Source: Bacteroidota bacterium (GTDB lineage Bacteria; Bacteroidota; Bacteroidia; UKL13-3). Taken from it: a stretch of DNA of 64,000 bases. The translations under genes were made by a program, and so were the position numbers. Below are positions 10,090-33,488 of this stretch, piece after piece; the first letter of the stretch is position 1; every line of letters begins with the position of its first letter. The stretch spans positions 1 to 64,000 of the forward strand of contig JAIXSO010000027.1 in assembly GCA_027484685.1 (NCBI GenBank), read 5' to 3'. The notes beneath the pieces were generated by a model. That model made no database searches and was not told where the DNA came from. It worked only from the letters and a program-made list of their open reading frames with translations.

Positions 10090-10165
10090 CTTTTAACAAT
10101 GGGGATTTTGTGCTTCTATGAAAGTTTAGTGCTAAAATATGCGCCTTCGTAAACCGTTATGAGGC
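10090..10165. repeat. Second copy of the GTGCTTCTATGA / AAACCGTTAT element
   Basis: It shares GTGCTTCTATGA (10110-10121) with the element at 110-236 and ends GTAAACCGTTATGAGG, as that one ends GCAAACCGTTATCGG. The internal part is shorter. It marks the end of the TetR/membrane-protein cassette. Confidence 0.5.
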
Positions 10166-10348
10166 ATTTTACAATGAAAGAAGGGATAAAAATATAGTTA
10201 TAAAAATTGACGATAAAATTAGACCACATGAGTGGTTTGACTTTCACATATTAAACTACAACGGTTTCAATCTTACAGTTACCAGTAGCTAGTAATAAAT
10301 TACACCTTAATTATAAAAGTTGGACTAAAAATTTATAAAACATTGTAG

Positions 10349-10534
10349 AAAGAAAGTGCTACATATTTCAAAAGAGCTGTATTTGCTTTTTGTGTTTTCT
10401 GAATCATTACAGTTGTTTGTATTTTTTACAAAACAATTCTAGGCACCTTTTCAAGCACAAATAATACTTTTTTGGATGGCCTTTTAATAACCATTGCGGT
10501 TTTTTATAAGCGCAATATTGGCTTTGTTTATTAA
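10349..10534 (+). pseudogene. Possible decayed membrane-protein gene
   Basis: One frame reads about 60 codons of hydrophobic, protein-like sequence interrupted by a single TGA and lacking a start (KESATYFKRAVFAFCVF, stop, then IITVVCIFY, then GTFSSTNNTFLDGLLITIAV). The composition suggests a membrane protein fragment. The rest of the 10.17-10.78 kb gap shows nothing I can name. Confidence is low, as AT-rich DNA often gives hydrophobic frames by chance. Confidence 0.22.
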
Positions 10535-10778
10535 GACATTTCTTTATTAAATAAATTGAACTAACCGAGAACCCAGAATAATTATGATTTGCGTATTGCT
10601 TTATGGAACAAATAGCACTATGACGAGAAGATTAATTAATAAAAATAGTAACGAAATGCCCCGAGTTTTTTGTTTTTACCAAACAACATTACTTTTTAGT
10701 TTTACTCAACATGTCATAAAAAAGCGATCCTATACCAAGGCTGTTTTTTATGTTCAATTAAATAATGTCTACAATAAA

Positions 10779-10841
10779 TTCAAATTTTAAATAAGTAGTA
10801 AAGATATAAAATCGTTTTTATTTGGAGATTATCCGGTCTAG
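10779..10841 (+). pseudogene. Remnant of an ADP-ribosylglycohydrolase gene start
   Basis: TTCAAATTTTAAATAAGTAG and the following bases match the 5' end of the intact gene at 16332, including about 10 bp upstream of its start codon. Codons from 10791 read ISSKDIKSFLFG, against MSNKDIKSVLFG in the intact gene, with several synonymous differences. The start is ATA and a TAG follows 16 codons on. It is a decayed partial duplicate, about 5.5 kb from its relative. Confidence 0.65.
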
Positions 10842-10876
10842 GCTTGTCTTCGCCAGCAATAAAACGTTTTTTTTAC

Positions 10877-10960
10877 TTTGTTTTTTATTCTTTTATCTGC
10901 AAGTTTGAATACAAAATGTATTAGGACCAATAAATCTAGCATTCACACACTGCCATTAGC
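10877..10960. repeat. Intergenic repeat, right segment, degenerate copy
   Basis: It contains CTTTGTTTTTTATTCTTTTA, CTGCAAGTTTGAATA and ends CACACTGCCATTAG. The middle differs from other copies (ATGTATTAGGACCAATAAAT). The metal-transporter gene starts 31 bp later. Confidence 0.65.
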
Positions 10961-10990
10961 AGTAATGGTGAGGTACTCTAACTGTAGACC

Positions 10991-11788
10991 ATGAAAAAAA
11001 CAACATTTAAAATATCAAAAATGGACTGCCCATCCGAAGAACAAATGATACGGATGAAACTTGCCGATTTGACAAATATTAATTTCTTGGACTTTGATAT
11101 AGCTAATAGACAACTAAACGTTTTTCACTCAGGTAACTACGACCAAATTTTTCAACGCCTTGATAGTTTAAAGTTTGACACGTTACTTATTGACAGCGTA
11201 TTGGCAGACAATTATATTTCAACAACCAATAACAAAGTACAAGAACGAAAATTACTTTGGCAAGTTTTAGCGATTAATTTTTTCTTTTTTGCACTTGAAC
11301 TTACAACAGGTTTTATGTCAAACTCAATGGGACTTACTGCCGATAGTTTGGATATGCTTGCTGACAGTATTGTTTACGGACTTGCACTTTTTGCAGTAAG
11401 TGGGACAATGACACGAAAAAAAAACATTGCAAAATCAGCAGGATATTTTCAGATAATACTTGCCATTTTTGGTTTTATTGAAGTTGTAAGGCGATTTATT
11501 GGACTTGAAACAGTTCCCTCGTTCAAAACAATGATAATTATTTCTACGCTTGCACTAATTGGCAATGGACTATGTTTGTTTTTATTACAAAAGAGCAAAA
11601 GTAAGGAAGCACATATGCAAGCAAGTATGATTTTTACATCAAATGACGTAATAGTAAACATTGGAGTTATAATAGCAGGAGGAATGGTTTATTTAACAAA
11701 CTCAAAATATCCTGACCTTTTGGTTGGGACAGTGGTATTTTTCATTGTTGGGCATGGCGCAATTAAAATATTGAAATTATCAAAATGA
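10991..11788 (+). CDS. HMA-domain / CDF-type cation efflux fusion protein
   Basis: A 265-aa membrane protein. Residues 1-75 form a ferredoxin-like HMA metal-binding domain with a single cysteine (KMDCPSEE) instead of CxxC. Residues 90-260 are the cation diffusion facilitator core: about six hydrophobic segments with LTADSLDMLADSIVYG, in which the aspartates sit where the CDF zinc site (HxxxD/DxxxD) lies. The usual cytoplasmic C-terminal domain of CDF proteins is absent. It probably exports a divalent metal from the cytoplasm. Repeats flank it on both sides and no regulator is adjacent. Confidence 0.75.
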   Translation: MKKTTFKISKMDCPSEEQMIRMKLADLTNINFLDFDIANRQLNVFHSGNYDQIFQRLDSLKFDTLLIDSVLADNYISTTNNKVQERKLLWQVLAINFFFFALELTTGFMSNSMGLTADSLDMLADSIVYGLALFAVSGTMTRKKNIAKSAGYFQIILAIFGFIEVVRRFIGLETVPSFKTMIIISTLALIGNGLCLFLLQKSKSKEAHMQASMIFTSNDVIVNIGVIIAGGMVYLTNSKYPDLLVGTVVFFIVGHGAIKILKLSK

Positions 11789-11811
11789 CAATGAAGAAAG
11801 AACCACTAAAG

Positions 11812-12050
11812 TTAACACATAAGGCTGATACTTAGCTCCGCCTTTTTGCGGAGATGCGATTTAAACACTGTAGTTATCAGCGCTTTGATGACAGTAACGA
11901 AATATATTTATCTTGGAGCATTTAACAACAAGTTTTCTTTGCTTAATTGATATTTAACTGCTACACCAACAGCTTATGAAAAATAAATTTTGCTTTGTTT
12001 TTTCAGGTTTAATAAAAATGTTTACAACCCTACAAAGAGATACAGTAACC
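11812..12050. repeat. Composite intergenic repeat, most degenerate copy
   Basis: The left part (GTTAACACATAAGGCTGATA, GGAGATGCGATTT, GCGCTTTGATGACAGTAAC) aligns with 1936-2070 and 6580-6710. The right part from about 11990 (GCTTTGTTTTTTCAGG, AAAATGTTTACAACC) aligns with 2241-2270. A 6-bp hairpin CTCCGC/GCGGAG lies near 11836. The following gene begins 80 bp downstream. Confidence 0.6.
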
Positions 12051-12129
12051 ATTACAGTACAAAAATGGAAATTAAATTGGAAGAATTTAGCTATAATATG
12101 TTCAATTTTGTTTTATATTTCAATTTTCA

Positions 12130-13533
12130 ATGAAACGATTATATTTAATTGCAATTCTTTTTATTAATGCTTTGTGTAATTCTTTTGCACAAAATGTAGC
12201 TGCTCCTGATAGTGTTATACATAAAGCCTTAGAGTGCTTTCAACCCAATAGAAAATTACCCGTTTTTTATTATGATAAAGGCAAAAGTACCAAGGCAGTT
12301 ACCGATACTTTCTGGATTTGGAATACCACCAAAAGAGATATTTCTGTTTATTTAAACCCATATTATCACAAAGATTGGAATATGCCCTGCATAGTAAAAG
12401 CCAATAGCAAAGCGCCTTTGGTGTACTACCAAGTATTTGAAAATTTTGAAGGTTATTATTCTCCTATTAATCAAATGGCAAGAATAGAATATGGCAATGA
12501 ACATTTAACTGTTACTTTATACACGCAACTTGCAAATAAAAATGCTGCTAAGCATAAAATGCCAGATGGTAGTTTGCAATTTACCCTTCCGTTAGACAGT
12601 TTAAAGCACAATTATTTATATACTTTTCCAAATGGTATAATGAAAGAAGCTGGCTGCAAACTAAATGCTGATAGCAGTAAAATTGGAGGAATTGTTACAA
12701 AAGCAAGATTTGGCGATGGCTATGATGTAGCATATCATGGTAAAGAATTTAGCTTTGAATTAATGAATGCAGACATCAAAGATTGTAAAGTATATTATAA
12801 AAATGAGTTGCACGCAAAAGACTATCCAATTTATATAACAAGCAATAAATTCAAATACCTATTTCCTGAAAAAGCCAGCGAACTAAAAATAGTAAAAGAT
12901 AGTAGCAGTGTTACTTACCCTTTGGTAGATGGGGCAAATAATAGAACTTTTCAATTGTACCTTATTAAACCTAACGAACCTTATATGATTGTAAATAATA
13001 TAAAGCGACCTGTGGATTACAAACACCATCAATATTGTGTATTTTATAATGCGCTGCCAAGTATAGAAAATAACACAACCACTTTTCGTGATTATCAAAA
13101 AGATTACCCTGATTTAAAAATATACAATATCCATTATAAAACCGTTTTTGATATAGAAAATTTAAGTGAAACCAGCAGAATAAATATCTTACAAGAGTTG
13201 CAAAAAGACAGTTCGGTAAGATGCATAATTAAACTAATTTCTAAAACAGATGGCAAAAATAATTTTCATATTTTTGATAATAGCATATACTGTATTTTAC
13301 CAACAACTGTGCAACAAGAAAATTTAATAGAAAAAGCAAAGAAATTTGGTTTTGAATATTTAACAACACAAGCTGTAAGCAGCTTTACGCATTTTTTTAA
13401 TTATAAAAATAAATTGTGGGACGAAAAAGCAATGCAGCAATTTAATAAGCTTTACCAAAACTATCCCTATTACGATTTTAAAATTAACTATTATCTAATT
13501 GCTGAACCTGACATAAACAATGTAGAAAAATAA
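12130..13533 (+). CDS. Exported protein of unknown function (467 aa)
   Basis: A signal peptide covers residues 1-20 (cleavage after SFA). The first 130 residues alternate in a beta-strand pattern with DTFWIWNTTKRDISVYLNP and an EGYYSP turn, reminiscent of Ig-like DUF1573 domains that occur in Bacteroidota exported proteins. The rest is unassigned. There is no T9SS tail and no lipobox, so it is probably periplasmic. It stands alone between two repeat copies. I do not recognise the family. Confidence 0.65.
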   Translation: MKRLYLIAILFINALCNSFAQNVAAPDSVIHKALECFQPNRKLPVFYYDKGKSTKAVTDTFWIWNTTKRDISVYLNPYYHKDWNMPCIVKANSKAPLVYYQVFENFEGYYSPINQMARIEYGNEHLTVTLYTQLANKNAAKHKMPDGSLQFTLPLDSLKHNYLYTFPNGIMKEAGCKLNADSSKIGGIVTKARFGDGYDVAYHGKEFSFELMNADIKDCKVYYKNELHAKDYPIYITSNKFKYLFPEKASELKIVKDSSSVTYPLVDGANNRTFQLYLIKPNEPYMIVNNIKRPVDYKHHQYCVFYNALPSIENNTTTFRDYQKDYPDLKIYNIHYKTVFDIENLSETSRINILQELQKDSSVRCIIKLISKTDGKNNFHIFDNSIYCILPTTVQQENLIEKAKKFGFEYLTTQAVSSFTHFFNYKNKLWDEKAMQQFNKLYQNYPYYDFKINYYLIAEPDINNVEK

Positions 13534-17578: not shown

Positions 17579-17797
17579 ATGCACTTTTCGGAATTAATAA
17601 AAACCATAAAAGAACGTAGGGAGGCGCTACAAGTAACACAGGAGGGGTTGGCAGAACTATCAGGTGTTGGATTGAGAACTTTAAAACAGTTTGAAAGCGG
17701 AAAAGGAAACCCTACGCTGTCAACATTGCATAAAATATCGGATGTGTTGGGCATGGAGATTTGCCTAAAAATTAAAAATGTTACGCATACTAAATGA
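17579..17797 (+). CDS. hipB: HipB-like XRE antitoxin/repressor
   Basis: A 72-aa protein that is almost entirely a Cro/CI helix-turn-helix: IKERREALQVTQEGLAELSG, then VGLRTLKQFESGKGNP, then LHKISDVLGM. It matches Bacteroidota HipB proteins in size and order. It should bind the promoter just upstream and, with HipS or HipT, autoregulate the operon. Its last 4 nt overlap the next start (ATGA). Confidence 0.85.
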   Translation: MHFSELIKTIKERREALQVTQEGLAELSGVGLRTLKQFESGKGNPTLSTLHKISDVLGMEICLKIKNVTHTK

Positions 17798-18141
17798 GAA
17801 AAGCCAAAGTATTATTCAAGAATGAAGAAGCGGGTATCTTGACCCAACACGATGATGGTTCGTTTTCATTTCGTTATCACGAATACTGGGTAGCAAATAA
17901 CGATAAGCAAAGCATCAGTCTAACTTTACCTAAAACTGAAAAAGAATTTCATTCTAAGTACCTGTTCCCATTTTTTTTCAGCATGCTTCCTGAAGGTTCT
18001 AATAAGCAAGTGGTATGCAAATTAAATAGAATCGACAGAGAGGACTATTTCGGATTGTTGATGACTACCGCAAAAAATGACAGCATAGGTGCTGTGACGG
18101 TTAGGAAAATGGAAAATGGAGAATGGAGAATGGACAATTGA
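17794..18141 (+). CDS. hipS: HipS-like HipA N-terminal subdomain protein
   Basis: A 115-aa protein equivalent to the N-terminal subdomain of HipA (KVLFKNEEAGILTQ, then SFRYHEYWVA, then YLFPFFFSMLPEGSNK, then DYFGLLMT). In HipBST systems this separate piece acts as the antitoxin to the HipT kinase. The natural end appears to be near SIGAVTVRKM. The final residues (ENGEWRMDN) are encoded by a 7-bp tandem repeat that precedes the next gene, so the original C-terminus may have been replaced. Confidence 0.8.
   Translation: MRKAKVLFKNEEAGILTQHDDGSFSFRYHEYWVANNDKQSISLTLPKTEKEFHSKYLFPFFFSMLPEGSNKQVVCKLNRIDREDYFGLLMTTAKNDSIGAVTVRKMENGEWRMDN
18104..18138 (+). repeat. Five tandem 7-bp units, GGARAAT type
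   Basis: The units are GGAAAAT, GGAAAAT, GGAGAAT, GGAGAAT and GGACAAT, followed by TGATAATTATG. They overlap the last codons of hipS and lead directly to the start of the four-helix-bundle gene. Similar GGAGAAT tracts are, in my recollection, common before this gene family in Bacteroidota; that link is from memory, while the repeat itself is plainly visible. Confidence 0.8.
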
Positions 18142-18146
18142 TAATT

Positions 18147-18497
18147 ATGAAAGAGAATGTAATAAAAATAAAAAGCTTTGCATTTGCCCTCAACATTGTA
18201 AAACTCTATCAGTATTTGACAGATTCTAAGAAAGAGTATATTTTATCCAAACAGATGCTTCGTTCAGGCACTGCTATTGGTGCTATGGTGAGAGAAGCTG
18301 AACATGCAGAAAGTAAAGCCGATTTCATACATAAATTATCAATAGGATTAAAAGAAGCAAACGAAACAGAATACTGGTTAGAGTTGCTTTATCAATCTGA
18401 CTATATTGATAAAAACGATTTTGAATCTTATAAAACGGAGGTTGAAGAAATTTTAAGACTGCTCATTTCTATTATAAAATCTTCAAAACAAAAATGA
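18147..18497 (+). CDS. Four-helix-bundle protein (23S rRNA intervening-sequence type)
   Basis: A 116-aa helical protein of the S23/IVP four-helix-bundle family: KIKSFAFALNIVKLYQYL, then LSKQMLRSGTAIGAMVREA, then ADFIHKLSIGLKEANETEYWLELL. The SGTAIGAMVREAE segment is the family signature. Members are found both inside 23S rRNA intervening sequences and as free-standing, highly mobile genes of unknown function. The start is the ATG at 18147. It sits between hipS and hipT and overlaps hipT by 4 nt, so it is translated within the toxin operon. Confidence 0.88.
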   Translation: MKENVIKIKSFAFALNIVKLYQYLTDSKKEYILSKQMLRSGTAIGAMVREAEHAESKADFIHKLSIGLKEANETEYWLELLYQSDYIDKNDFESYKTEVEEILRLLISIIKSSKQK

Positions 18498-19501
18498 CCG
18501 AAAAACAAAAATATTTAGCTCAATTGTCAATTGAGGTTTGTCCCGGCACATTATCTGAAGGGTTTAATACGTACAGCAGAACAGCTTTGAATAGAGTTTT
18601 TCAGGGCAAGAGGGTTAATCATGTTTTGCCTTACGATTCTCCAGCATCCAGCCCCGAAGCAGATCAAATGTTTGAAGAGAATAGAAATCGTATGTCGATA
18701 TCAGGTGTACAAGAAAAATTTTCTGTATTGCTTGACAAAAATAAGTTAAGGCTTATTAATGAAAATGAACAAGGTACTTATATTCTGAAACCAATTCCTG
18801 GGGCTGGTAAAAAGTCAGATCAAATGCCTGCCAATGAGCATTTAACCATGCAAATTGCGCGTCAGGTTTATGGAATAGAAACGGCAGAAAATGCATTGAT
18901 ATTTTTTAAAGATGGCACACCAGCCTACATCACTAAAAGATTTGATGTAAAAGAGGATGGCTCAAAATTAGCGCAAGATGACTTTGCTTCCTTAGCAAAA
19001 AGAACCCCTCAAACCCATGGAGAACATTACAAGTATCTCGGGAGTTATTTAGATCTATTTGAACTAATGCGCAAATATTTAACAACGTACAAAATTGAAG
19101 CACCAAAACTTTTCAGAATAATTGTCTTTAATTATCTCTTTTCAAATGGAGATGCGCACGTTAAAAATTTCTCTATTTTAGAAACACCCTTTGGAGATTA
19201 TCGACTGAGCCCGGCTTATGACTTGCTAAATAGCCGCATACATATAGAAGATAAGGACTTTGCATTAGAGGATGGTCTATTGCCTAGAAATCTAGCTCAA
19301 GGTAAAATCGGTTTACAATTTGCTAAACTAGCAGAGAAAGCAGAAATCAGTGAAAAGACTTTTCAGGAAATTATGACATTGATGATTTCTAAATCAGAAT
19401 TAGTTGAAAAAATGATAGCTGCGTCTTTTCTAAATGAAACCACTAAAAGAAATTATTTCCAGTCTTTTCAAGGCCGTTTAAAACAACTAACCAAAGTATG
19501 A
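18494..19501 (+). CDS. hipT: HipT-like serine/threonine kinase toxin (HipA C-terminal type)
   Basis: A 335-aa kinase of the HipA family. Visible elements are the Gly-rich loop with the SIS autophosphorylation motif (SISGVQEKFS, residues 68-77), the ATP lysine Lys99 in YILKP, the catalytic NGDAHVKN (Asp220, Asn225) and the metal aspartate Asp243 in AYDLLNS. Known HipT and HipA enzymes phosphorylate aminoacyl-tRNA synthetases and arrest growth. The target here cannot be read from sequence. It appears intact, so its neutralisation by HipS must still work despite the inserted gene. Confidence 0.88.
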   Translation: MTEKQKYLAQLSIEVCPGTLSEGFNTYSRTALNRVFQGKRVNHVLPYDSPASSPEADQMFEENRNRMSISGVQEKFSVLLDKNKLRLINENEQGTYILKPIPGAGKKSDQMPANEHLTMQIARQVYGIETAENALIFFKDGTPAYITKRFDVKEDGSKLAQDDFASLAKRTPQTHGEHYKYLGSYLDLFELMRKYLTTYKIEAPKLFRIIVFNYLFSNGDAHVKNFSILETPFGDYRLSPAYDLLNSRIHIEDKDFALEDGLLPRNLAQGKIGLQFAKLAEKAEISEKTFQEIMTLMISKSELVEKMIAASFLNETTKRNYFQSFQGRLKQLTKV

Positions 19502-20377: not shown

Positions 20378-21256
20378 ATGAAGGCTTTTCTTTTAAATAT
20401 TACATCGTTAGTAAGAATGCATCATTGGGTAAAAAATGGATTTGTATTTTTACCTATTTTTTTTGCTGGAAAAATCCATTTAATGCTACAAGCAAGTATG
20501 CTTTGGTTGTTTTTTTCTTTTTGTTTGGCCTCATCGGCTATTTATATTTTAAACGATATAGTTGATGTAAATACCGATAAATTGCATCCCACCAAAAAGC
20601 TCCGACCAATTGCAAGTGGTTTTTTTGGTATCAAAACGGCCATTATTTTATTTGTAGTAATCTCGTTACTTTTCTTTTTATCTTTAATATTTTTAGGCTC
20701 TTCGGGTATTTACGTTTTAAGTTATTTTGTTTTAAATGTATTGTATTCATTTTACCTAAAACGTATTTCCATTGTTGATGTTTCTACCATAAGTGCAGGA
20801 TTTGTATTAAGAGAATTGGCGGGTGGTGCCGAAAGTGATGTTTATGTATCGCATTGGATGATTATAATGACCTTTCTGCTTACTGTTTCCATTGGTTTTG
20901 CAAAACGAAGAGACGACTTGGTATTAATACTTGAAAAGGAATCTACAATAAAATCGTTAGGCGGTTATACCATTACATTTTTAGATATAGCTAAAAGTAT
21001 TTCATTTTCTATTACTTTAATATCTTACATTTTATATTCTATATCGGCTGAAGTGATTGCAAGAATTGGTTCAGATAAACTTTATATTACTTCACTTTTT
21101 GTGTTTTTAGGAATAATGAGGTATATACAAATTACGGTGGTTGATAAAAATTCTGGGTCACCAATTGAAGTGCTTTGGAAAGATAAATTTTTGCAGATAA
21201 ACATATTCTTTTGGGCCTTCACATTTCTATTTATTATTTATGGAAAGAGTATGTAA
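20378..21256 (+). CDS. UbiA-family decaprenyl-phosphate phosphoribosyltransferase-like
   Basis: A 292-aa polytopic prenyltransferase. The first Asp-rich motif is ND-IVD-VNTD-KLHPTKKLRP (Asn59, Asp60, Asp63, Asp67), and the second region has YLKRISIVDV and KRRDDLVL. This pattern is that of DPPR synthase (mycobacterial Rv3806c type), which moves 5-phosphoribose from PRPP onto a polyprenyl phosphate, rather than quinone-pathway UbiA. The pairing with a DprE1-like oxidase (17-bp overlap) and a phosphatase supports this strongly. It acts in the inner membrane. Confidence 0.85.
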   Translation: MKAFLLNITSLVRMHHWVKNGFVFLPIFFAGKIHLMLQASMLWLFFSFCLASSAIYILNDIVDVNTDKLHPTKKLRPIASGFFGIKTAIILFVVISLLFFLSLIFLGSSGIYVLSYFVLNVLYSFYLKRISIVDVSTISAGFVLRELAGGAESDVYVSHWMIIMTFLLTVSIGFAKRRDDLVLILEKESTIKSLGGYTITFLDIAKSISFSITLISYILYSISAEVIARIGSDKLYITSLFVFLGIMRYIQITVVDKNSGSPIEVLWKDKFLQINIFFWAFTFLFIIYGKSM

Positions 21257-22547
21257 TTGGGGCTTGTACCCAAAGGTTGATGCTGTTCAATTTTCTGCTG
21301 CCAATTATAGTGAGATTGCAGACATTGTTAAGGCTAATGATACAATAATTGCACGAGGAAATGGGCGCTGTTATGGTGATAGCTCACTTCAGAAAAATAT
21401 ATTTTCTACTTTATCATTAAATAGCATCATTAATTTTAATGAAACCAATGGCATAATCAACTGTCAATCTGGAGTTTTTTTAAGCGAAATTTTGAATATA
21501 ATTATTCCTAAAGGATATTTTTTACCGGTAACTCCTGGCACTAAATTTATAACAATTGGCGGAGCTGTAGCGTCAAATATTCATGGAAAAAATCATCACA
21601 CAGAAGGTGCAATTGCCAACTTTATACATTCGTTTGAATTGCTAATTGATACAGGCGAAGTGCTGCATTGTTCTAAACAACAAAACAGCATCTTATTTGC
21701 AAATACAATTGGTGGAATGGGGCTTACAGGTATTATTATTGAGGTGCAATTGCAGCTAAAAAAAATTGAAACCAGTTATATTAATCAGCAAATTATAAAA
21801 GCACAAAACCTAGCTGAAATAATCAATTATTTTGAAAAATATAAAGACACAACGTATGCTGTAGCTTGGATTGATTGCTTGGCCAAAGGAAAAAATTTAG
21901 GAAAATCTATTTTGTATTTAGGTGAACACACCAAAATGGGAGAATTGAACAAAAACCCAATTCGAAATCCATTAATAATTCAACATAAAAGAGCTATAAA
22001 TATTCCATTTTATTTCCCCACATTTGTTATGAGTAGGCTACTTATTAAGGGATTTAATTTTTTATTTTATAATAAACATTTGCGTTCAAAAGCAAGCAAT
22101 ATTATTGATTATAACTCATTTTTTTATCCGCTTGATGGACTCCATAATTGGAACAAATTGTATGGAAAAAATGGATTTACTCAATATCAATTTGTTATTC
22201 CTTTTGAAAATGGCCTAGAAGGATTGACAGAAATACTAACTAAAATTTCAGAATCAAACTGTGGTGCTTTTTTAGGGGTTTTAAAAACATTTGGTCCAAA
22301 AGAAACTTTTTCATCACCACTTTCATTTCCAATGGAGGGATATACTTTAGCCGTTGATTTTAAAGTAAATAATAAGGTTTTTCAGTTGTTGAATCAATTA
22401 GACGAAATAGTGCTAAAATATAAAGGCCGTTTATACCTTACCAAAGATGCGCGAATGAAAGCAGATACTTTTGCTAAAAGTTACCCAAATGGTTTGGAGC
22501 ATCCTCATAAATTTAGTTCATTACAATCGCAAAGACTTAAAATTTAA
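21240..22547 (+). CDS. DprE1-like FAD-dependent oxidoreductase
   Basis: A 435-aa FAD oxidase of the VAO fold. The FAD-binding part shows ARGNGRCYGDSS (39-49) and NIHGKNHH (113-120); the C-terminal part shows LKTFGPKETFSSPLSFP, then GYTLAVDF, then GRLYLTKDARMKADTF, all in the order of mycobacterial DprE1. That enzyme oxidises the ribose C2 of decaprenyl-phosphoryl-ribose as the first half of epimerisation to arabinose. The position equivalent to the benzothiazinone-reactive Cys387 appears to be alanine (TLAVDF). No DprE2 reductase is adjacent. Confidence 0.82.
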   Translation: MERVCNWGLYPKVDAVQFSAANYSEIADIVKANDTIIARGNGRCYGDSSLQKNIFSTLSLNSIINFNETNGIINCQSGVFLSEILNIIIPKGYFLPVTPGTKFITIGGAVASNIHGKNHHTEGAIANFIHSFELLIDTGEVLHCSKQQNSILFANTIGGMGLTGIIIEVQLQLKKIETSYINQQIIKAQNLAEIINYFEKYKDTTYAVAWIDCLAKGKNLGKSILYLGEHTKMGELNKNPIRNPLIIQHKRAINIPFYFPTFVMSRLLIKGFNFLFYNKHLRSKASNIIDYNSFFYPLDGLHNWNKLYGKNGFTQYQFVIPFENGLEGLTEILTKISESNCGAFLGVLKTFGPKETFSSPLSFPMEGYTLAVDFKVNNKVFQLLNQLDEIVLKYKGRLYLTKDARMKADTFAKSYPNGLEHPHKFSSLQSQRLKI

Positions 22548-23213
22548 ATGGAGCAAAATAAGGAGCTAAAAAAGGGAGTGGCATTTTTTGATTTTGATGG
22601 AACCATCACTTTCAAAGATTCGTTCATTGAATTTATTAAGTTTACTTTTGGTACTGTTCTGTATTTAAAGTGCTTATTAATTAACGCACCATTTATTATT
22701 CTTTATTTTTTAGGATTGTATTCAAATCACCAATTAAAGGAACGGTTTTTTGGTTTTTTCTTTAAAAACAGCTCAGAAGCTGAAATAAAAGTAAAAGGAG
22801 GTTTATTTGTGAAAAACCAGCTTTTAAAAATTTGTTTTCCTAGTGCTATTAAGCTAATTCAGTGGCACCAAGCTCAAAATCACGATATTTATATTTTAAC
22901 GGCTTCTTCCAATATTTGGTTAAATGATTGGTGTAAAACCAATAATTTAACATTAATTGGAACTGAGTTTGAAACAATAAATGGAATTTATACGGGTAAA
23001 ATAGCAGGAAAAAATTGTCATGGACAGGAAAAAGCAAATAGAATAGAGGACTTGCTTAACCAATACAATAAAAATGAAACCTATGGTTATGGGAACGAAA
23101 AAGCGGATAATTTTTTTCTAAATAAATTGCAGTTTAAGCTAAATGCACCATTGAATGAGGAGAATGTAATATCATTTTTAAATTTACGTAATAAGGGAAC
23201 ATCAATAAATTAA
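22548..23213 (+). CDS. HAD-IB family phosphatase
   Basis: A 221-aa SerB-like HAD hydrolase. Nucleophile motif FDFDGTIT has Asp15 and Asp17. Motif II is LTASSN, the motif III lysine lies in GQEKANRI and motif IV is GYGNEKADNFF, a GN variant of GDxxxD seen in some HAD-IB proteins. It starts directly after the oxidase stop. In this operon it probably removes the 5-phosphate from polyprenyl-phosphoryl-5-phosphoribose, the step done by a PAP2 protein in mycobacteria. A hydrophobic stretch at 37-57 suggests membrane association. Confidence 0.78.
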   Translation: MEQNKELKKGVAFFDFDGTITFKDSFIEFIKFTFGTVLYLKCLLINAPFIILYFLGLYSNHQLKERFFGFFFKNSSEAEIKVKGGLFVKNQLLKICFPSAIKLIQWHQAQNHDIYILTASSNIWLNDWCKTNNLTLIGTEFETINGIYTGKIAGKNCHGQEKANRIEDLLNQYNKNETYGYGNEKADNFFLNKLQFKLNAPLNEENVISFLNLRNKGTSIN

Positions 23214-23220: not shown

Positions 23221-24750
23221 ATGTGGGAAGCTGCAAATAACAAATTTGGTAAATATTTTAAGGTTGGAACAAATAACTTCAATCAATTAATTTTTTTACT
23301 AATTATTATGTTTTCTATTGCATTAAGATTTTTGCATTTTGGCGAAATTATTGACGATCCGCATGGTTGGCGACAATGTGATACCGCAAATTATATTTGG
23401 GATTATTATAAAAATGGCGTTGATTTTTTGCACCCAGCTGTTTGTTGGATGGGAGGTTATAAAACACTGATTTTAGAGTTTCCATTAACTGAAGCAATTA
23501 TAGCTTGGTTATACCAAATTTTTGGTCCAAGTATCTCCATAGCTCGCTTGTTTTTCTTATCGTTTTATGTTTTAAGCATTTGTTATTTTTATAAAAATTG
23601 TAAGCTATTCCTTCCATTGAAAACCGCCATGTTTTCAACTGTTATTTACACTTTTTTACCTTTATCTTATTATTATTCAAGGGCCTTACACATTGATTTT
23701 TTTGCACTTTCGTTTGCTTTTGGTATGTTTTATTTTTATACCGTTGGTATAAAAACGCAAAGCATCAAAAAAATAGTTATGGGTAGTGTATTTGCAACTA
23801 TTGCGTTTTTGGTAAAAGCGCCTTATGCTTTATCATTTTTCTTGCCTATTATTTATATTATTACCAAAGAAAAGAAATGGTTATTCTGTTTAAAGTGGTC
23901 CATATTATTTATTTTACCCGTAGTCATTTTTGCCTGGTGGATTGTTAAATCAAAACAAATAAATGCCATGGCTCCTGATTGGTATTTTATTCCTGGTTAT
24001 CGCAAATTTGATGATAATACTAAGTGGTATTTTGGATTATTTGAACATAGATTTATACTTAGAAGTTGGCAAACACTTTTTGAAAGATTAATGACTGATA
24101 TGAGCTCAGGTTTTTTGGGTGCCGCCTTATTTTTGGTGGGTTTATTTGCTGCCTTTAAGAAAAAATATATTTTATTGTGGCTTTGGTTCATAGGGGTTAT
24201 TTTATACTTACTTTTGTTTTTCAATTTAAATGTAATTCATAACTACTACCAAATTCCTTTTGTTCCGCTATTGGCCATATTTATGGCCATTGGAATTGAT
24301 TTTTTGGCTACTTTTTTTGAACTTAAAAACAATTATTTTTCAGTGCAGAAATTTTTGCTTGCTACTTTAATTATTAGTTCAATTATGTATGCAGAAACCA
24401 ATTTTTTTAAACATGAAACCATTTATGAAAACATTGCCAAATGTATTGAAGATAATACCAAAGAAGATGATTTGGTGATTGTTTCATGCGGGGGACTGTC
24501 GGTTCATTGCCCAATAATTTTGCATAGAGCAAAGCGCAATGGATGGTCAATACCTGTTACAGTAATAAATGAAAAAATAGCCAATAGTTTAAAAAAAGAG
24601 GGTTGCAGGTATGTAGCATTTATTGAGAATGAAATACCACAAAATACTTTTGGCAACTTTTTGAAATTACACCCAATAAAAGATATACCAATTTCAAAAG
24701 GGAAACATCTTTTTTTAATTGATTTAAACAACACCAAGCTAAGACAATAA
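23221..24750 (+). CDS. GT-C glycosyltransferase, ArnT/PMT-like
   Basis: A 509-aa polytopic protein with roughly ten membrane segments. The first periplasmic loop carries DDPHGWRQCDTA (about residues 40-51), the acidic and WRQxDTA motif of GT39/GT83-type enzymes that use polyprenyl-phosphate sugars. A soluble C-terminal region of about 110 residues follows. It lies 7 bp after the HAD phosphatase and so may use the polyprenyl-phosphate pentose made by the preceding three genes. Acceptor unknown. Confidence 0.78.
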   Translation: MWEAANNKFGKYFKVGTNNFNQLIFLLIIMFSIALRFLHFGEIIDDPHGWRQCDTANYIWDYYKNGVDFLHPAVCWMGGYKTLILEFPLTEAIIAWLYQIFGPSISIARLFFLSFYVLSICYFYKNCKLFLPLKTAMFSTVIYTFLPLSYYYSRALHIDFFALSFAFGMFYFYTVGIKTQSIKKIVMGSVFATIAFLVKAPYALSFFLPIIYIITKEKKWLFCLKWSILFILPVVIFAWWIVKSKQINAMAPDWYFIPGYRKFDDNTKWYFGLFEHRFILRSWQTLFERLMTDMSSGFLGAALFLVGLFAAFKKKYILLWLWFIGVILYLLLFFNLNVIHNYYQIPFVPLLAIFMAIGIDFLATFFELKNNYFSVQKFLLATLIISSIMYAETNFFKHETIYENIAKCIEDNTKEDDLVIVSCGGLSVHCPIILHRAKRNGWSIPVTVINEKIANSLKKEGCRYVAFIENEIPQNTFGNFLKLHPIKDIPISKGKHLFLIDLNNTKLRQ

Positions 24751-24799
24751 GCAATTTCAAATTTTACAAATAAGTATATATTTGGTTTTTTTTACATTT

Positions 24800-26788
24800 A
24801 TGAAACAATTTAACACCATTTATTTTATTCTTTTCTTAGCCTGTATTTCAATTTTGGTTGTATTTCAAACTTCCAATGTAAAGCAAACCAGTGGCGATAG
24901 TCAATTAACGCTATTAACCTCACAAGCTATCATTGAAAATGGAAATGTGAATTTGTCAAAATATTATTCGCAGGTTCCACCAGAACAGTTCTCTAACGGT
25001 ACTTGGAAGTTTAGATTTAACAACGATAAAAATCAATTAGAATATGGCTATCCTATTGGTAACTCTATAATTTCAATTCCATTTGTTTTTGTTGCCAACA
25101 AACTAGGAATGAGCATGTTGGTTCAAGAGCATGATGCAAGTTTACAAATACTTATTGCCAGTTTATTGGCCATGATATTATTGTTATTAAATTTTAAACT
25201 AGCAAGGATGTTTGTAAGCGATTATTTGGCATTACTCATAACTTTAATATTTACGTTTGCCACCTCTTATATAAGTACTTGTGCCACAGCATTTTGGAGT
25301 TTTAACTCAGAACTTGTATTTATTGTATTATTATTAATTGAATTGTCAAAAACTGAATTAGATGAAACCTATAAGCCTCACTTTGGTTTATTAGGGCTAT
25401 ATCTTTTTGGGGCATGGTTTTGCAGACCCAGCTCAATGGTTTTTATAGCAGTATTTTTTGTATGGATGCTTTTAAAACAAAGAAGTTTAATTATTAAAAC
25501 CATTACCAGTTTTGCGATATTCATGCTTTTTTTCATGTCATTGTCATACAGTTGGTATGGAACATTTATTCCGTTTTATTATAATCCATTTATGTGGCAA
25601 AGCTTTGCTAAAACGGTAAGCATTTGGGAGGGTTTTTTACTTATTTTATTTAGCCCAAACAGAGGGTTATTTATTTATAGTCCATTTTTAATTTTCGCTT
25701 TTTTTTCGAGCTTTACTTTAGCAAGAAAAACAACTGTTTTTAAAATTTTAGTTGGGTGGTTTTTGGTTTATATTTTAAGTCTGGGAAATTTAAGTAATTG
25801 GTGGGGCGGCTGGAGCTTTGGAGCAAGGCTTTGTACCGACATTATTCCATGCTTATTTTTACTCTTACTTTTAGGACTTAAACACATAAATTTTACAATA
25901 ATTAGCCATAAAATTACTTCACTTATATTTCTTACAACCGCTGTTATTGGTTTTGCAATCAATACTTTTCAGGGGATTTACAATATAGAAACCTATAATT
26001 GGAATGATTATCCTGCTATAGATAAAAACTATCAGTTTTATAAATGGAACTGGCAATACCCACAGTTTTTAGCCAATAAAAGAAACAACGAAAACAAAAA
26101 AGTTGATTTTGAATTACATCAATACTATTCAAAATTTATATTGCAAACACCCGAAAATGCTAACATATTAATGGGTACGCCAGATGCAAGCTATAGAAAC
26201 ATATTGAATAGTTGGAATAAGCAAAAAATATATGGCAGCAGGCACTTTTTTAATTCGATAAATGATTCAATAAACAGCGATACATTTTATTTTTTTAGAC
26301 CAAGCCATGATTATGTAAGGTCGTTTAATAATTTAGATGTTGTATTTCAATCTAAAATTGAAATGGCTGAGTTTTTAAGTGAAAACATTGACAATATTAT
26401 TATCCTAACAGCTAGGGGTAATTGGAAAGGGAACATTTCTGAAAAACTAAAAACAAAGTTTTTTACAATGGGCTTGAAACTAAATGATTTAAACAATTTT
26501 TCGAGTTATTTAGCAGTGCTTAATAAAGAAAAAATAATGTATGAACTAAGCAACGAAACGGCTGAAGTTCGACAAGATTTTGCTATTAATGAAGCAAAGT
26601 TTGAAGTAGTTTCTTCAGCCAATATTGCCTCAACAAAAATGAATGGCAAAGAGTTAAACTTTAACTTAGACGGAATAAATATACTTGTACTTAAAGACAA
26701 TATGGAAATTGATAAATTAGGTTACGTTAACTTACAATCAAACGAAAACTACATTGACCTATTTTTGTATAAAGCGGTAAAAAAGTAG
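24800..26788 (+). CDS. Large GT-C-like membrane protein
   Basis: From the ATG at 24800 the protein has 662 aa; a TTG at 24782 is less likely. The first 380 residues hold about ten membrane segments, with SGDSQLTLLTSQAI in the first loop, where GT-C enzymes carry their catalytic acid. The last 260 residues are soluble and unassigned. The architecture matches glycosyltransferase-like membrane proteins of polysaccharide loci, but no family-specific motif confirms the activity. It is followed by 216 bp with no feature I recognise. Confidence 0.65.
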   Translation: MKQFNTIYFILFLACISILVVFQTSNVKQTSGDSQLTLLTSQAIIENGNVNLSKYYSQVPPEQFSNGTWKFRFNNDKNQLEYGYPIGNSIISIPFVFVANKLGMSMLVQEHDASLQILIASLLAMILLLLNFKLARMFVSDYLALLITLIFTFATSYISTCATAFWSFNSELVFIVLLLIELSKTELDETYKPHFGLLGLYLFGAWFCRPSSMVFIAVFFVWMLLKQRSLIIKTITSFAIFMLFFMSLSYSWYGTFIPFYYNPFMWQSFAKTVSIWEGFLLILFSPNRGLFIYSPFLIFAFFSSFTLARKTTVFKILVGWFLVYILSLGNLSNWWGGWSFGARLCTDIIPCLFLLLLLGLKHINFTIISHKITSLIFLTTAVIGFAINTFQGIYNIETYNWNDYPAIDKNYQFYKWNWQYPQFLANKRNNENKKVDFELHQYYSKFILQTPENANILMGTPDASYRNILNSWNKQKIYGSRHFFNSINDSINSDTFYFFRPSHDYVRSFNNLDVVFQSKIEMAEFLSENIDNIIILTARGNWKGNISEKLKTKFFTMGLKLNDLNNFSSYLAVLNKEKIMYELSNETAEVRQDFAINEAKFEVVSSANIASTKMNGKELNFNLDGINILVLKDNMEIDKLGYVNLQSNENYIDLFLYKAVKK

Positions 26789-27004
26789 AAGAGTTATTAA
26801 AACAAACTGAAATGCCCCATATTTTGTAAAACTTAAAAATTTTGGACAACTATAACTATTTGATTGTGTTTTTATTGTTATATTTAACCAATTATTTAAA
26901 TTGAAGTACTCACTTTTTTGTTTTTATATATAAAAAAAATAAGCTAATCTTAAAAAAGATTTTTAAAACCCAACTTGGGTAAATATATTAAGGAATTAAA
27001 TAGA

Positions 27005-27955
27005 ATGAAAGACCAACAAGAAAAAAATGACCTTTTGCAAATAATAAGGTTTATTTACATAAACTATAAAATTTATATAAAGTCAATAACAATCACATTG
27101 ATTTTAACTGTCGCAGTAACATTTTTATTACCTAAACAATATAAATCAACCGGAATTATTTTTCCAACATATTCTAATTCGCTAGAAGAAACATATAATA
27201 ACCCAATGTTTGGTTACGATATTGAGGCCGATAGAGTTTTACAGCTATTACAATCGCAAGAAATTCAAGACAGTATTACACGTAAATTTGATTTAGTGAC
27301 CTATTTTGAACTTGATACTTTAGATGAAAGATGGAGAGATGATTTAAGAAAAGAAATTATAGAAAATGTAAATTTTTCAAAAACACCTTTCATGTCAATC
27401 GAAATATCTGCAAAAACAAAAGACCCACAACTTTCAAGCGACCTAGTAAATACAATTATTGGTTTAATTGACCCAATAAGAAATCGGATATTAAAGCAGA
27501 ATATTATTGTGGCGCATAATTCAATTAGAAACGAATACCAAAATCAAAAGAATAACCTGGACTCGTTGGTAAATTTAATTAAAACCATGCGCGATGAATA
27601 TGGCAATCCCGCAATTAGTTTATTGGCAAATCAAGAATTTAATTTTGATAATAAAAGAACAGGTAACAATACCTTGTTGGAAGAAAAAATAGATAAATAT
27701 TTAATACAAAAAGTTATTTATAACGATATAAAAGTTAAATATGAGCGTGTAAAAACACAATTAGAAAGGCCTCTTCCTGGCATATACGTTATAAATCAGG
27801 GTATAAAATCAAATAAAAAAGTATCACCTTCATTTTTAATAAATATGGTAATTACTACTATATTAACAATTGTAATAGTTACTATGGTATTGGTTTTAAA
27901 AATTAAACTAAATGGTTTAAATGCTTACTTAAAGAATGATTCATTGAATGAATAA
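27005..27955 (+). CDS. Wzz/GumC-type chain-length determinant protein
   Basis: A 316-aa polysaccharide co-polymerase. Membrane segments lie near residues 30-48 and 280-302, enclosing a large, mostly helical periplasmic domain with a coiled-coil-like stretch (about 165-215). The start at ATG 27005 is preceded by AAGGAATTAAATAGA; a TTG at 26975 would add ten residues. No tyrosine-kinase domain is fused. It should set the length of the exported polysaccharide with the overlapping (8 nt) Wzy/ligase-like gene. Confidence 0.78.
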   Translation: MKDQQEKNDLLQIIRFIYINYKIYIKSITITLILTVAVTFLLPKQYKSTGIIFPTYSNSLEETYNNPMFGYDIEADRVLQLLQSQEIQDSITRKFDLVTYFELDTLDERWRDDLRKEIIENVNFSKTPFMSIEISAKTKDPQLSSDLVNTIIGLIDPIRNRILKQNIIVAHNSIRNEYQNQKNNLDSLVNLIKTMRDEYGNPAISLLANQEFNFDNKRTGNNTLLEEKIDKYLIQKVIYNDIKVKYERVKTQLERPLPGIYVINQGIKSNKKVSPSFLINMVITTILTIVIVTMVLVLKIKLNGLNAYLKNDSLNE

Positions 27956-29432
27956 AGTGATAACTTTTTTACAGAAACACCTTACATTCTCTATTATTCT
28001 ATTTTTAGTTGTTGTTATTAATTTGGCTTTGCTATCTAATAACTCATTAATTATTGCTATTGTTTTTTACGGTGTTTTAGGAATAGCACTTTTATTATCA
28101 TTAATTATTAATAAGGAAATATTTTTTGGTATAACTATTTTCTTTATTCCATTGTCGTTTATTCTGGAGCAAAGCGCTGGACCTTCTGTTTCATTTCCAT
28201 CAGAGCCTTTAGCAGGTATTTTATTAATGTATTTGGTTATCAATTTCTTTTCTAATGGAAAAAGTGATTTTACAATATTTAAACACCCAATTACTATTTT
28301 AATACTACTTGATTTTTTATGGATGATTATTACCAGTGTTACTAGTACAATGCCATTGGTTTCGTTTAAAAGAACGATTATTAAATTACTGTATATTAGT
28401 ATTTATTATTTTTATTCAATTGGTGTTTTTAAAAAACCAGAAAATATTTCTAAAGTATATGTTCTATATATTTTAGGCTTAATTTATCCAATTATTAATA
28501 CATTTATTTATCATACCAAGTACAATTTTAATATAGCAGCAGCTTATAAAATGACCTTACCGTTTTATAATGATCACACTATTTATGGGGCTTGTTTGGC
28601 TTTTTTAATACCATTTATTTTACTTTTTATAATTCAAAACAATAATTTTATTAAATACTTTTGGTTTTTAGTAATATTGGTATTTATTGGTGCTACTTTT
28701 TTATCGTTTTCAAGAGCAAGTTGGTTAAGTTTGGTATTAATCTTTTTGTTGTATTTAGCTATTCATTTTAAAATAAAAATACAATTTATAATTATGGTTT
28801 TGGTTAGCATTTCTTTAGTTGGCTACTTTAGTTATAATACACTCAAAATTAAATTTCAAAGTAATAAATCGGTAAGTAATAAAGATGTAGGTCAGCACTT
28901 AGAATCGATGGGGAATATTAAATCGGATGCTTCTAACGCTGAAAGATTAAACAGATGGTATTGTGCATGGCAAATGTTTTTAGATAAACCTGTATTTGGT
29001 TTTGGCCCTGGTACTTATCAATTTAATTATGGTCCATATCAAATAAAGGAAATGGTTACACGAATTAGCACCTACAAAGGAGATAGGGGAAACGCTCATT
29101 CAGATTATTTAGGCTATTTGTGTGAAACGGGATTGATAGGGTTGTTAATCTATTTAGGTCTTATTTATTCTGCACTAAAGTTAGGTTTAAAACACGTTCA
29201 TAATTTAAATAGTCCCTATAAAAACTTGTCTATGGTTTTATTATTAAGTTTAACCACATTTTTTATTCATGGTTTTTTTAATAGTTTTATTGATATAGAT
29301 AAAACAATGATGTTGGTACTTTGTGCAACTGCTGGATTGGTGGCTATTGATTTAAAGAATAAAGAATTAGATAATAACTCAAATGAAAATATTTTTGAAA
29401 ATCAAGCCAAAATTTTAGGGAAGAATGGGTAG
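27948..29432 (+). CDS. O-antigen ligase / Wzy-like polymerase
   Basis: A 494-aa protein with about a dozen membrane segments. The Wzy_C/WaaL-type periplasmic region is clear: NRWYCAWQMFLDKPVFGFGP, then AHSDYLGYLCETGLIG, whose histidine and GFGPG loop are conserved. It either polymerises glycan repeat units or ligates them to a lipid anchor; sequence alone does not separate these. Overlaps the chain-length gene by 8 nt, so both are made together. Confidence 0.85.
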   Translation: MNKVITFLQKHLTFSIILFLVVVINLALLSNNSLIIAIVFYGVLGIALLLSLIINKEIFFGITIFFIPLSFILEQSAGPSVSFPSEPLAGILLMYLVINFFSNGKSDFTIFKHPITILILLDFLWMIITSVTSTMPLVSFKRTIIKLLYISIYYFYSIGVFKKPENISKVYVLYILGLIYPIINTFIYHTKYNFNIAAAYKMTLPFYNDHTIYGACLAFLIPFILLFIIQNNNFIKYFWFLVILVFIGATFLSFSRASWLSLVLIFLLYLAIHFKIKIQFIIMVLVSISLVGYFSYNTLKIKFQSNKSVSNKDVGQHLESMGNIKSDASNAERLNRWYCAWQMFLDKPVFGFGPGTYQFNYGPYQIKEMVTRISTYKGDRGNAHSDYLGYLCETGLIGLLIYLGLIYSALKLGLKHVHNLNSPYKNLSMVLLLSLTTFFIHGFFNSFIDIDKTMMLVLCATAGLVAIDLKNKELDNNSNENIFENQAKILGKNG

Positions 29433-30879: not shown

Positions 30880-32070
30880 TTGAGTTTTTTAAAATCAAAG
30901 CAATTTGTACGTGCTGCTAACATATTGGCATACAGTTCAAACTTGTTTTTACCTAATATAACAAATATACTTACTTCAGCCATTGTTATTAGGTTGTTGG
31001 TTCCTGAATGGTGGGGTCAAATTACTATTTTGCAACTATACATGTACCTAGGTAACCAGTTTTGTGCTTGGGGCAATAAAGATTCGTTAGTAAAATCGTT
31101 TAGTGAATACCCGTCCCAAAGCAAGTTTTTATGGATGGAATCATTCAGCAGTCGTTTGTTTTTACTATTGCCCGTATTGGCGGGAACATATTTTATTTCC
31201 AATGATCTAGTTGTTGTTTTCCATTTGTCAAGTTGGATTATTTTGCGGTATTTTTTACAATCTTTCGAGGCAATTATTTTATTTTCAAGAAAGTTTGCGG
31301 TAAGCATTGTTACCGAAATTATTGGATTGATTCTAGTTGTTTTTGCACTAGTTGTGTTTAAAAATTATTTGTCATTTCATGATGTTTTATTCATCATCAC
31401 CATCAGTTATTTAATAAGAACAATTATCCTTGTTGTATATTTTGGGGCATACTTTAATTTTGGTGTTTCGTTTAAACCCAATATTAAAAATTTATTGCCT
31501 TTCCTTCCATTTATGATGATAGGTTTTTCGGGGGTTTTACAACAAAAGTCGGATATGATAAGTGTTGCATGGTTGTCATCAAAAATAGAAATTGCACAAT
31601 ACCAAGTTTTCAGTAGTTTTTTGCTTTTCGCACAAGCAATACCAGCATTGGTAATTGGCCCCTACGTAAAAAACTTATACCGACTACCTATCTCAACCTA
31701 TTCAAAACTCCAGCGATTGTTTACCATTTATGGTTTTTTTGTTTCTTTAGCTTCCACCTTATTTATATACATTGCAATCAAAATTATATATCAGTTTGAC
31801 TTCCCTTCTACCATTTATTTTCTAGGCTTTTTAAACGGATGGTTTACTTACTTTTACATGTTTAAAATATTTTTGATGTTTAAAAAACAAAAGCAAAAGC
31901 AAGTGATGATTATAAACGCTGGCACAATTGTGCTTAATTTTGTTTTTTGTTTTGTTTTTATTCAATTATGGGGAATACAAGGCGGAATTTTAGCTGCTGC
32001 AATAACTCAACTATTCACTTATTTTATTTATAAGTATTATTTAAAAAACAATTTAGCTATAAAGTTATAG
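30880..32070 (+). CDS. Wzx-like polysaccharide flippase
   Basis: A 396-aa protein with about twelve membrane segments in the pattern of MATE-like/MVF O-antigen flippases. It begins with a TTG at 30880, preceded by AAGAGACAA; the first ATG in frame lies about 50 codons further and would remove the first membrane segments. It should move the lipid-linked repeat unit across the inner membrane for the Wzz and Wzy-like proteins. The next gene follows after 5 bp. Confidence 0.75.
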   Translation: MSFLKSKQFVRAANILAYSSNLFLPNITNILTSAIVIRLLVPEWWGQITILQLYMYLGNQFCAWGNKDSLVKSFSEYPSQSKFLWMESFSSRLFLLLPVLAGTYFISNDLVVVFHLSSWIILRYFLQSFEAIILFSRKFAVSIVTEIIGLILVVFALVVFKNYLSFHDVLFIITISYLIRTIILVVYFGAYFNFGVSFKPNIKNLLPFLPFMMIGFSGVLQQKSDMISVAWLSSKIEIAQYQVFSSFLLFAQAIPALVIGPYVKNLYRLPISTYSKLQRLFTIYGFFVSLASTLFIYIAIKIIYQFDFPSTIYFLGFLNGWFTYFYMFKIFLMFKKQKQKQVMIINAGTIVLNFVFCFVFIQLWGIQGGILAAAITQLFTYFIYKYYLKNNLAIKL

Positions 32071-32075: not shown

Positions 32076-33488
32076 ATGAAAAGGGAAAATTATTTTTATT
32101 TAAAAGTGGTATTTTTAACCATATTGTTTTTAATTGTTCGTATTGCCATGCAATTCGATGGACTTTACGGACAAGACGCCTATGAATACTTAAGATATAC
32201 CAATGAAATGTATTCGTTTTTTGTAAATGGTACTTTGCTTGGCGATTATTTTTGGGGTATGGGTTACCCCTTTTTTGGTTGTATATTTAATTTTTTTGTG
32301 CATGATGGAGCAGTGGCTTTGCAATTGGTTTCATTGGCAGCAGCATTTACAACGTGGATATACATGGATAAAATGCTTGCACTTATTTATCCTGAAGAAC
32401 CCAATTACATCATTACATTTTTGTTTTTAGTATTATCACCCATATTCATCATTCAAAGTTTTTTAGTAATGAGTGATATGTTGGCTTGTAGTTTTATAAT
32501 AATGGCTATTTATTATTTCATTCAATTTATTATTCAATCTAAAAACAAACATTGTATGCTAGGGGTAATTTTCAGTATGCTATCTTTACAAACTAGGTAT
32601 GCATCAATTGTTATTTTGGTATTATTTTTTGTTTTAGTATTTATCAAATTAGTAAAATCAAAAAACTATAAAATGATTTTGTTTTCCGTTTTGATTGGTA
32701 TTACCATTTCCCTTCCTCATATTTATATTAGAGCAAACAATAGCTTACAGTTCTTATCGCATAATTTCCTTACGGAATGGAATATATTGAATTTATTTAA
32801 AAACAGTTTTATCAGTATAAATGGGGAGTCACAGAGTAAGCTGATTAATTTGGTTTATTGTTTATATTCTTTTTTTCATCCGCAATTTTTTGCTTTTGGG
32901 TGTTTAATTTTTGTATTGATATTCATAAATAAATACAAATTTTTTATTGGAAACCGTTTTCAAAATATAATACTAATATCCATACTAACTTATGCCATTT
33001 TTTTGGCTGGTATTCCCTTTCAAAACAAACGATTTTTAGCACTTTCTTTCCCATTGGTAATTATTGTTTGTTACCCTGTTTTAAAACAAATACTATCAGC
33101 TACTAAATGGAGTAAAAGTTTAATAATGGGTGTTTTGGTGTTGCAATTTGGATTTATTGTTTACTTTGGAAAGCCTATTTACCAAAGAAGCAAATTAGAA
33201 AAGACAATTGCCAATGATTTAATTGCTTTTTCTGGTAAAACTATCTACATATTTGATATAGATCTTGCTTTAAAAGGAAGAAATGTTCCATTAGATTATC
33301 AGAATATTTGGTACAAGGAGTATAAAAATTTTAAAAAAGGGGCTTTGGTTTTGTTAAATGCAGCGCAGTTAGAAAAGCAATGGATTGGATTGAATCCATT
33401 AATTAACTGGAATAAACTAAAAACAAATGAAACCCTTCAGGTTTTAAAACCCTATGGTGATGGTTGGAATTTGTATGAAATTCAATAA
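32076..33488 (+). CDS. GT-C glycosyltransferase, GT39-like
   Basis: A 470-aa polytopic protein. The first loop has DGLYGQDAYEYLRY (about 28-41), an acidic motif placed as in GT39/PMT-type enzymes, then a GMGYPFFG loop typical of related GT-C proteins. About ten membrane segments and a 110-residue soluble tail follow. This is the third GT-C protein of the locus, so several polyprenyl-linked sugars may be used. The donor and acceptor are unknown. Confidence 0.72.
   Translation: MKRENYFYLKVVFLTILFLIVRIAMQFDGLYGQDAYEYLRYTNEMYSFFVNGTLLGDYFWGMGYPFFGCIFNFFVHDGAVALQLVSLAAAFTTWIYMDKMLALIYPEEPNYIITFLFLVLSPIFIIQSFLVMSDMLACSFIIMAIYYFIQFIIQSKNKHCMLGVIFSMLSLQTRYASIVILVLFFVLVFIKLVKSKNYKMILFSVLIGITISLPHIYIRANNSLQFLSHNFLTEWNILNLFKNSFISINGESQSKLINLVYCLYSFFHPQFFAFGCLIFVLIFINKYKFFIGNRFQNIILISILTYAIFLAGIPFQNKRFLALSFPLVIIVCYPVLKQILSATKWSKSLIMGVLVLQFGFIVYFGKPIYQRSKLEKTIANDLIAFSGKTIYIFDIDLALKGRNVPLDYQNIWYKEYKNFKKGALVLLNAAQLEKQWIGLNPLINWNKLKTNETLQVLKPYGDGWNLYEIQ

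Follow-up and report, generated by a model that had tools for sequence, protein, structure and literature searches.

A predicted polyprenyl-phosphate-pentose operon with a DprE1-type oxidase and without DprE2 in a Bacteroidota genome

Introduction

What does a DprE1-type oxidase do in an operon that lacks the DprE2 reductase? The question is raised by a bacterium of the phylum Bacteroidota (GTDB lineage Bacteroidia; UKL13-3; assembly GCA_027484685.1), whose genes for a UbiA-type protein, a DprE1-type oxidase and a HAD-IB phosphatase form one run that is followed by a gene for a GT-C glycosyltransferase. Here we report an analysis of this locus in the window, i.e., the whole stretch of 64,000 nucleotides that was analysed (contig JAIXSO010000027.1, positions 1–64,000, forward strand), together with searches of the remaining genome and of related genomes. 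In tuberculosis bacteria, a related kit serves the arabinose coat; the genes of the mycobacterial DPA pathway are Rv3806c, Rv3807c and those of DprE1 (Rv3790) and DprE2 (Rv3791).

Three-component pentofuranose systems are known in Gram-negative bacteria (PMC11127046). They comprise a UbiA-type polyprenyl phosphoribose synthase (PPPRS) that bears a HAD phosphatase domain, together with a flippase of the MATE type, a GT-C protein (GT136) and optional epimerases; homologues of DprE1 and DprE2 are the auxiliary epimerase in the Araf-containing cases, and Rv3807c is unrelated to HAD (PMC11127046).

Results and discussion

The operon lies inside a contig of 110 kb (Table 1). By open reading frame calls, the run at 20378–23213 has the order PPPRS, DprE1-type oxidase, HAD-IB phosphatase, and its frames and junctions agree to the base with those of an earlier note on this DNA: the PPPRS and DprE1 genes share an overlap of 17 nt, the ATG of the HAD gene at 22548 abuts the TAA of the oxidase gene, and the GT-C gene starts at 23221, 7 bp past the HAD stop.

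Table 1. Features of the locus (positions in the window).
Feature	Position	Strand	Basis
PPPRS (UbiA-type, DPPR-synthase-like)	20378..21256	+	NF008977, PDB 8j8j, alignment, tree
DprE1-type FAD oxidase (polyprenylphosphoryl-ribose 2'-oxidase)	21240..22547	+	NF053785, PDB 4aut
HAD-IB phosphatase, probable 5'-phosphatase of polyprenyl-phosphoryl-ribose-5-phosphate (PRP role)	22548..23213	+	PF12710, TIGR01490
Junction holding dprE2 in sister operon, empty here	22547..22548	+	TAA then ATG directly
GT-C glycosyltransferase, ArnT/PMT-like, likely lipid-linked pentose user	23221..24750	+	PF13231, ArnT profile match
Second polytopic GT-C-like protein (LA_3751 family, weak)	24782..26788	+	NF047440 below cut-off
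Wzz-like chain-length and Wzy_C/O-antigen-ligase-like proteins, surface glycan assembly context	26975..29432	+	PF02706, PF04932
Candidate flippase (Polysacc_synt/Wzx-like family)	30880..32070	+	relatives' PF01943 matches
Third polytopic protein, EpsG/PMT_2-like below cut-off	32076..33488	+	family search

The PPPRS (292 aa) carries the motif NDxxDxxxDxxHPxKxxRP, and its residues N59, D60, D63, D67, H70, K73 and R76 are invariant columns in an alignment of 16 rows. Its top NCBIfam model is NF008977, decaprenyl-phosphate phosphoribosyltransferase (E 7.6e-57; 193 bits against a curated cut-off of 234), and the sole relatives found by PDB sequence search are the DPPR synthase entries 8j8j (E 2.9e-27) and 8j8k. 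A tree of UbiA proteins places it among operon-borne PPPRSs and apart from the genome's five further UbiA proteins, with a support of 92 for the outer split and the paralogues on very long branches. Model, PDB relatives and tree together rule out a quinone or haem prenyltransferase, the assignment that the earlier note had regarded as fatal to its proposal.

The oxidase matches NF053785 over residues 6–417 (E 1.5e-111; 373.8 bits, cut-off 500) and aligns to crystal structures of DprE1 (PDB 4aut, E 1e-72). Because their scores fall under the curated equivalog cut-offs, PPPRS and DprE1 are distant members of these families, not actinobacterial orthologues. The dprE1 frame is intact and keeps 73 of the 76 columns that are at least 95% conserved in other DprE1s (the changes at the other three are D113N, L264M and S343A), which rules out a decayed gene, and K402 of the LTKDAR motif is invariant in a 14-row alignment. 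The shortened C-terminal stretch was rejected as a sign of damage since the Weeksellaceae-type DprE1 of locus L054, which has dprE2, is equally shortened. Residue 371 is an alanine, as in most of the 14 DprE1 rows; in mycobacterial DprE1 the corresponding position is the cysteine that matters for benzothiazinones (Cys387, whose role is described in PMC3035642).

The HAD protein matches PF12710 (1e-24) and TIGR01490 (104.4 bits, over the cut-off of 98.3), and had no match in a PDB sequence search; from its family and position it is probably the 5'-phosphatase of polyprenyl-phosphoryl-ribose-5-phosphate. The family matches, the PDB sequence relatives and the UbiA tree thus lend good support to the polyprenyl-phosphate-pentose module that the earlier note had proposed.

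Both known kinds of pathway resemble the locus in part. The PPPRS and DprE1 are homologous to those of the mycobacterial DPA pathway and retain the conserved motifs, whereas the 5'-phosphatase in the window is of the HAD and not of the Rv3807c type, and DprE2 is lacking; no Emb/Aft-type arabinosyltransferase was identified in the window. The systems of Citrobacter youngae O1 and O2 combine a UbiA-family PPPRS and a HAD-type PRP phosphatase, which yield lipid-linked Ribf from PRPP, with an optional epimerase, a flippase and a GT-C user in a surface-polysaccharide locus (PMC11127046). The window likewise has a UbiA-family PPPRS with an adjacent HAD phosphatase, here encoded by a separate gene. 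It differs in that DprE1 stands without its reductase, with no DprE2-family partner in operon or assembly, that the GT-C protein is ArnT/PMT-like by profile, and that the flippase is a candidate.

Genes for PPPRS, DprE1, DprE2 and HAD lie within 9 kb of each other in 27 of 72 named loci from several phyla (80 loci were taken and 8 dropped where the ORF filter had lost the DprE1 frame; a HAD fused into PPPRS was not scored as HAD). Since the four genes co-occur repeatedly across phyla, the arrangement is not due to chance. The order PPPRS-DprE1-SDR-HAD is common in the sampled Bacteroidota (e.g., loci L054–L057, L059, L061, L062 and L094), and many other loci have a PPPRS of about 475 aa with a HAD-type motif at its start. 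Fusions of DprE1 and DprE2 occur in L096 (10337–12457; genome G428, 706 aa), L130 (9566–12064; a Cloacimonetes MAG) and L181 (9959–12076; a Flavobacteriales MAG), and therefore the two steps appear to be tightly coupled.

The observation of the earlier note that the operon contains no DprE2-like SDR was right, and a search of the genome assembly (72 contigs, 99.87% complete) by profile, motif and NCBIfam scan found no DprE2-family protein either. The profile was built from 21 SDRs located directly 3' of DprE1; in three operon DprE2s that were scanned, the DprE2 model NF053786 was second best, and NF053786 and NF005489 led the NCBIfam list. Against this profile, the SDRs of the window genome score at most 107 bits, mostly over part of its length, as opposed to 184–366 bits in 77 positive genomes; the match of the top SDR (106–107 bits) ends after roughly three quarters of the profile length, counted from its start. 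The genome has 17 SDR-family matches, 14 of which were included in the NCBIfam scan (the others, L021–L023, are long or partial). The RGR motif, invariant in all 21 aligned DprE2s, occurs in none of these 14, and for none of them do the 25 top-ranking NCBIfam models include NF053786 or NF005489. From the low or partial scores and the lack of the RGR motif, the assembly contains no DprE2-family protein; the genome's own SDRs were rejected as DprE2 also on the NCBIfam scan.

DprE1 was detected in 82 of 395 genomes of the phylum, DprE2 in 77 and both in 75, with at least 160 bits counted as positive for DprE1 and at least 180 bits for DprE2 (nine genomes at 158–172 bits without DprE1 were scored negative; Fisher p about 1e-69, a statistic that ignores relatedness). 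There are two DprE2-only genomes and seven DprE1-only genomes, i.e., the window's own (G000), three of one genus (G013, G034 and G131), G067, G212 and G340. Six DprE2 candidates were scored per genome, and this is the basis of the absence in G034, G131 and G067; all candidates were scored for G000, G013, G212 and G340. G067 and G212 are not firm cases because only about 0.7 kb or less separates their DprE1 from the end of its contig.

All three window proteins have their top-scoring relatives in one operon of Proteiniphilum acetatigenes DSM 18083 (L114; 51% identity for PPPRS, 49% for DprE1 and 49.5% for HAD), which is the tree sister of the window for both DprE1 (SH-aLRT 99) and PPPRS (SH-aLRT 100). 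Gene order and the overlap of 17 nt are identical to those of the window. The operon differs by a dprE2 gene (11348–12088) between dprE1 (10001–11314) and the HAD gene (12098–12751), and by a small GtrA-like ORF downstream (by eye). In the Weeksellaceae, the neighbouring clade in the DprE1 tree, dprE2 is found at the same place. Since this sister, in both trees and with the same overlap, and the Weeksellaceae hold dprE2 at this position, it was most likely dprE2 alone that was lost in the window lineage, from a co-inherited operon whose other genes stayed intact.

The alternative that dprE2 is present and merely falls into an assembly gap, so that the module is an ordinary split one, has little probability. 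An assembly in 72 contigs leaves room for it, and among 23 genomes searched, 17 have DprE2, several of them on another contig than DprE1 (e.g., G079, G253, G279 and G168); in G067 and G212, which are among the seven DprE1-only genomes, DprE1 is near the end of a contig. The window operon, however, is situated inside a long contig, the junction that holds dprE2 in the sister is closed, and the assembly is nearly complete.

The operon as a whole likely arrived by transfer because its distribution is sporadic, with a PPPRS match in none of nine other genomes of the genus and DprE1 in only 3 of 64 genomes across the order. The other two DprE1s of the order (G463 and G411) adjoin a divergent DprE2-like SDR (144 bits), and no PPPRS was found within the 20 kb read around them.

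We propose that the locus is a three-component pentofuranose module that has lost dprE2 and in which a non-dedicated SDR completes the formation of D-arabinose, a reading to which we give about even chances. The reactions, the substitute reductase, the flippase, the donor of the GT-C protein and the identity of the sugar are deduced from gene content. PPPRS would convert PRPP to polyprenyl-P-ribose-5-P, from which the HAD phosphatase would remove the 5-phosphate; DprE1 would then oxidise C2 of the lipid-linked ribose to a keto-sugar, which a non-dedicated cytoplasmic SDR might reduce to the arabino configuration, giving lipid-linked D-Araf. Once this lipid has been flipped, a step for which the Wzx-like protein at 30880 is a possible agent, the neighbouring ArnT-like GT-C protein would place D-Araf on the surface glycan made by the locus. 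A generic reductase seems the most likely answer because DprE2 is replaceable in other organisms: according to PMC3035642, the dprE2 orthologue of C. glutamicum can be disrupted, a functionally equivalent enzyme compensating for it, and dprE2 of M. smegmatis has also been disrupted. Against this, the only SDR of the genome that aligns over the full DprE2 profile (G000:C63:148173-148922; 98 bits) has a mycolate-reductase model as its best match, and its reaction could be of any kind. As regards the end sugar, the sequence is compatible with D-arabinose, ribose and an unreduced keto-pentose.

A module that now delivers ribofuranose, with PPPRS, HAD and GT-C adding ribose and DprE1 a leftover or engaged in futile oxidation, is unlikely, if worth attention. 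Two genomes of the same family, G413 and G417, carry PPPRS and gave no DprE1 in an order-wide search, and in G413 a HAD gene follows that of PPPRS directly; in C. youngae, loss of the epimerase gene is reported to distinguish O1 (Ribf) from O2 (Xylf) (PMC11127046). Yet a gene long useless would not keep 73 of 76 conserved columns, and the window operon is still tightly coupled.

Two further groups combine DprE1 with a lack of DprE2. The three species of the distant genus g61 (L082, L201 and L202 in G013, G034 and G131) encode HAD directly 3' of DprE1, and these two genes are neighbours of one that by eye resembles an aldehyde dehydrogenase gene; PPPRS is encoded elsewhere, and no DprE2 above threshold was found in their genomes. 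In Leptolyngbya sp. SIO4C5 (L172, 578–6116), PPPRS, a class-III aminotransferase, DprE1 and a HAD-LPG_synthase_TM fusion form one run, and no DprE2 was found on the 9-kb contig.

These loci and G340 would fit a lipid-linked 2-keto-pentose that is itself the product and is flipped and transferred or further processed to an unusual sugar. We consider this distinctly improbable for the window, in which no enzyme for such a step was identified; the DprE1 of G013 has diverged (6 of the 76 conserved columns are changed), and a keto-furanose on a phosphate lipid would be labile. Slightly less probable still is the wider version, in which the window organism and, independently, genus g61 and Leptolyngbya use a lipid-linked 2-keto-pentofuranose as a branch point or as a donor for glycans, so that the surface polysaccharide would receive a keto-pentose or one modified further.

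The first GT-C protein carries HGWRQCDTA and matches PF13231 (PMT_2; 4.8e-9), and its family profile matches ArnT (5ezm, E 1.1e-5), an enzyme with a lipid-linked pentose as substrate. Its tie to the pentose rests on the 7-bp spacing because the family is common, occurring in 74 of 295 genomes of the class irrespective of a pentose module. Of the three GT-C enzymes named in the earlier note, this one stands by its PMT_2 match, whereas the proteins at 24782–26788 (NF047440, 5.6e-11; no Pfam match) and 32076–33488 (EpsG/PMT_2) match glycosyltransferase families below cut-off only. Use of the pentose through all three is not supported, since only the first is adjacent to the operon and has an ArnT-related profile; it is the only one with a case as the likely pentose user. 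A phmmer search of the three against all ORFs of 130 PPPRS loci gave no match at 1e-3; a link of these proteins to the other loci was rejected on this result, which means that there is no conserved partner GT-C.

The surroundings point to surface glycan assembly, with matches at 26975–29432 to PF02706 (2e-5, just under cut-off) and PF04932 (2.1e-25). The flippase candidate lies 7.7 kb downstream, and one GtrA is encoded elsewhere in the genome. Three of 14 aligned members of the candidate's family match PF01943 (best 2.8e-6), while the protein encoded in the window matched nothing in Pfam or in a PDB sequence search; as a weak flippase candidate, it may export either the glycan or the lipid-linked pentose.

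The kind of pathway is known, and DprE1 without DprE2 is a real, uncommon variation of it. Such genomes provide natural cases outside the corynebacteria, where redundancy has been reported, in which to study the role of the oxidase by itself and to look for the SDR able to complete the epimerisation. In the sampled phylum, DprE1 and DprE2 make up a common route to lipid-linked pentofuranose, and from the frequency of DprE1 D-arabinofuranose is predicted in many of its surface glycans; in the open-licence literature, we found no paper on DprE1 or DprE2 in Bacteroidetes or Flavobacteria.

Two other features of the window lie on either side of these genes. Just upstream of the operon (17794–19501), a HipA-like toxin/kinase is split into a HipA N-terminal ORF, an ORF of 124 aa and a HipA_C ORF. 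Downstream of the glycan genes (38108–47527), five radical-SAM genes, starting at 38108 (SPASM), 39269, 40769, 43907 and 46142, are located amid two methyltransferase genes; the B12-binding domain is over cut-off in two of them, just under it in one, and at E 0.17 in another.
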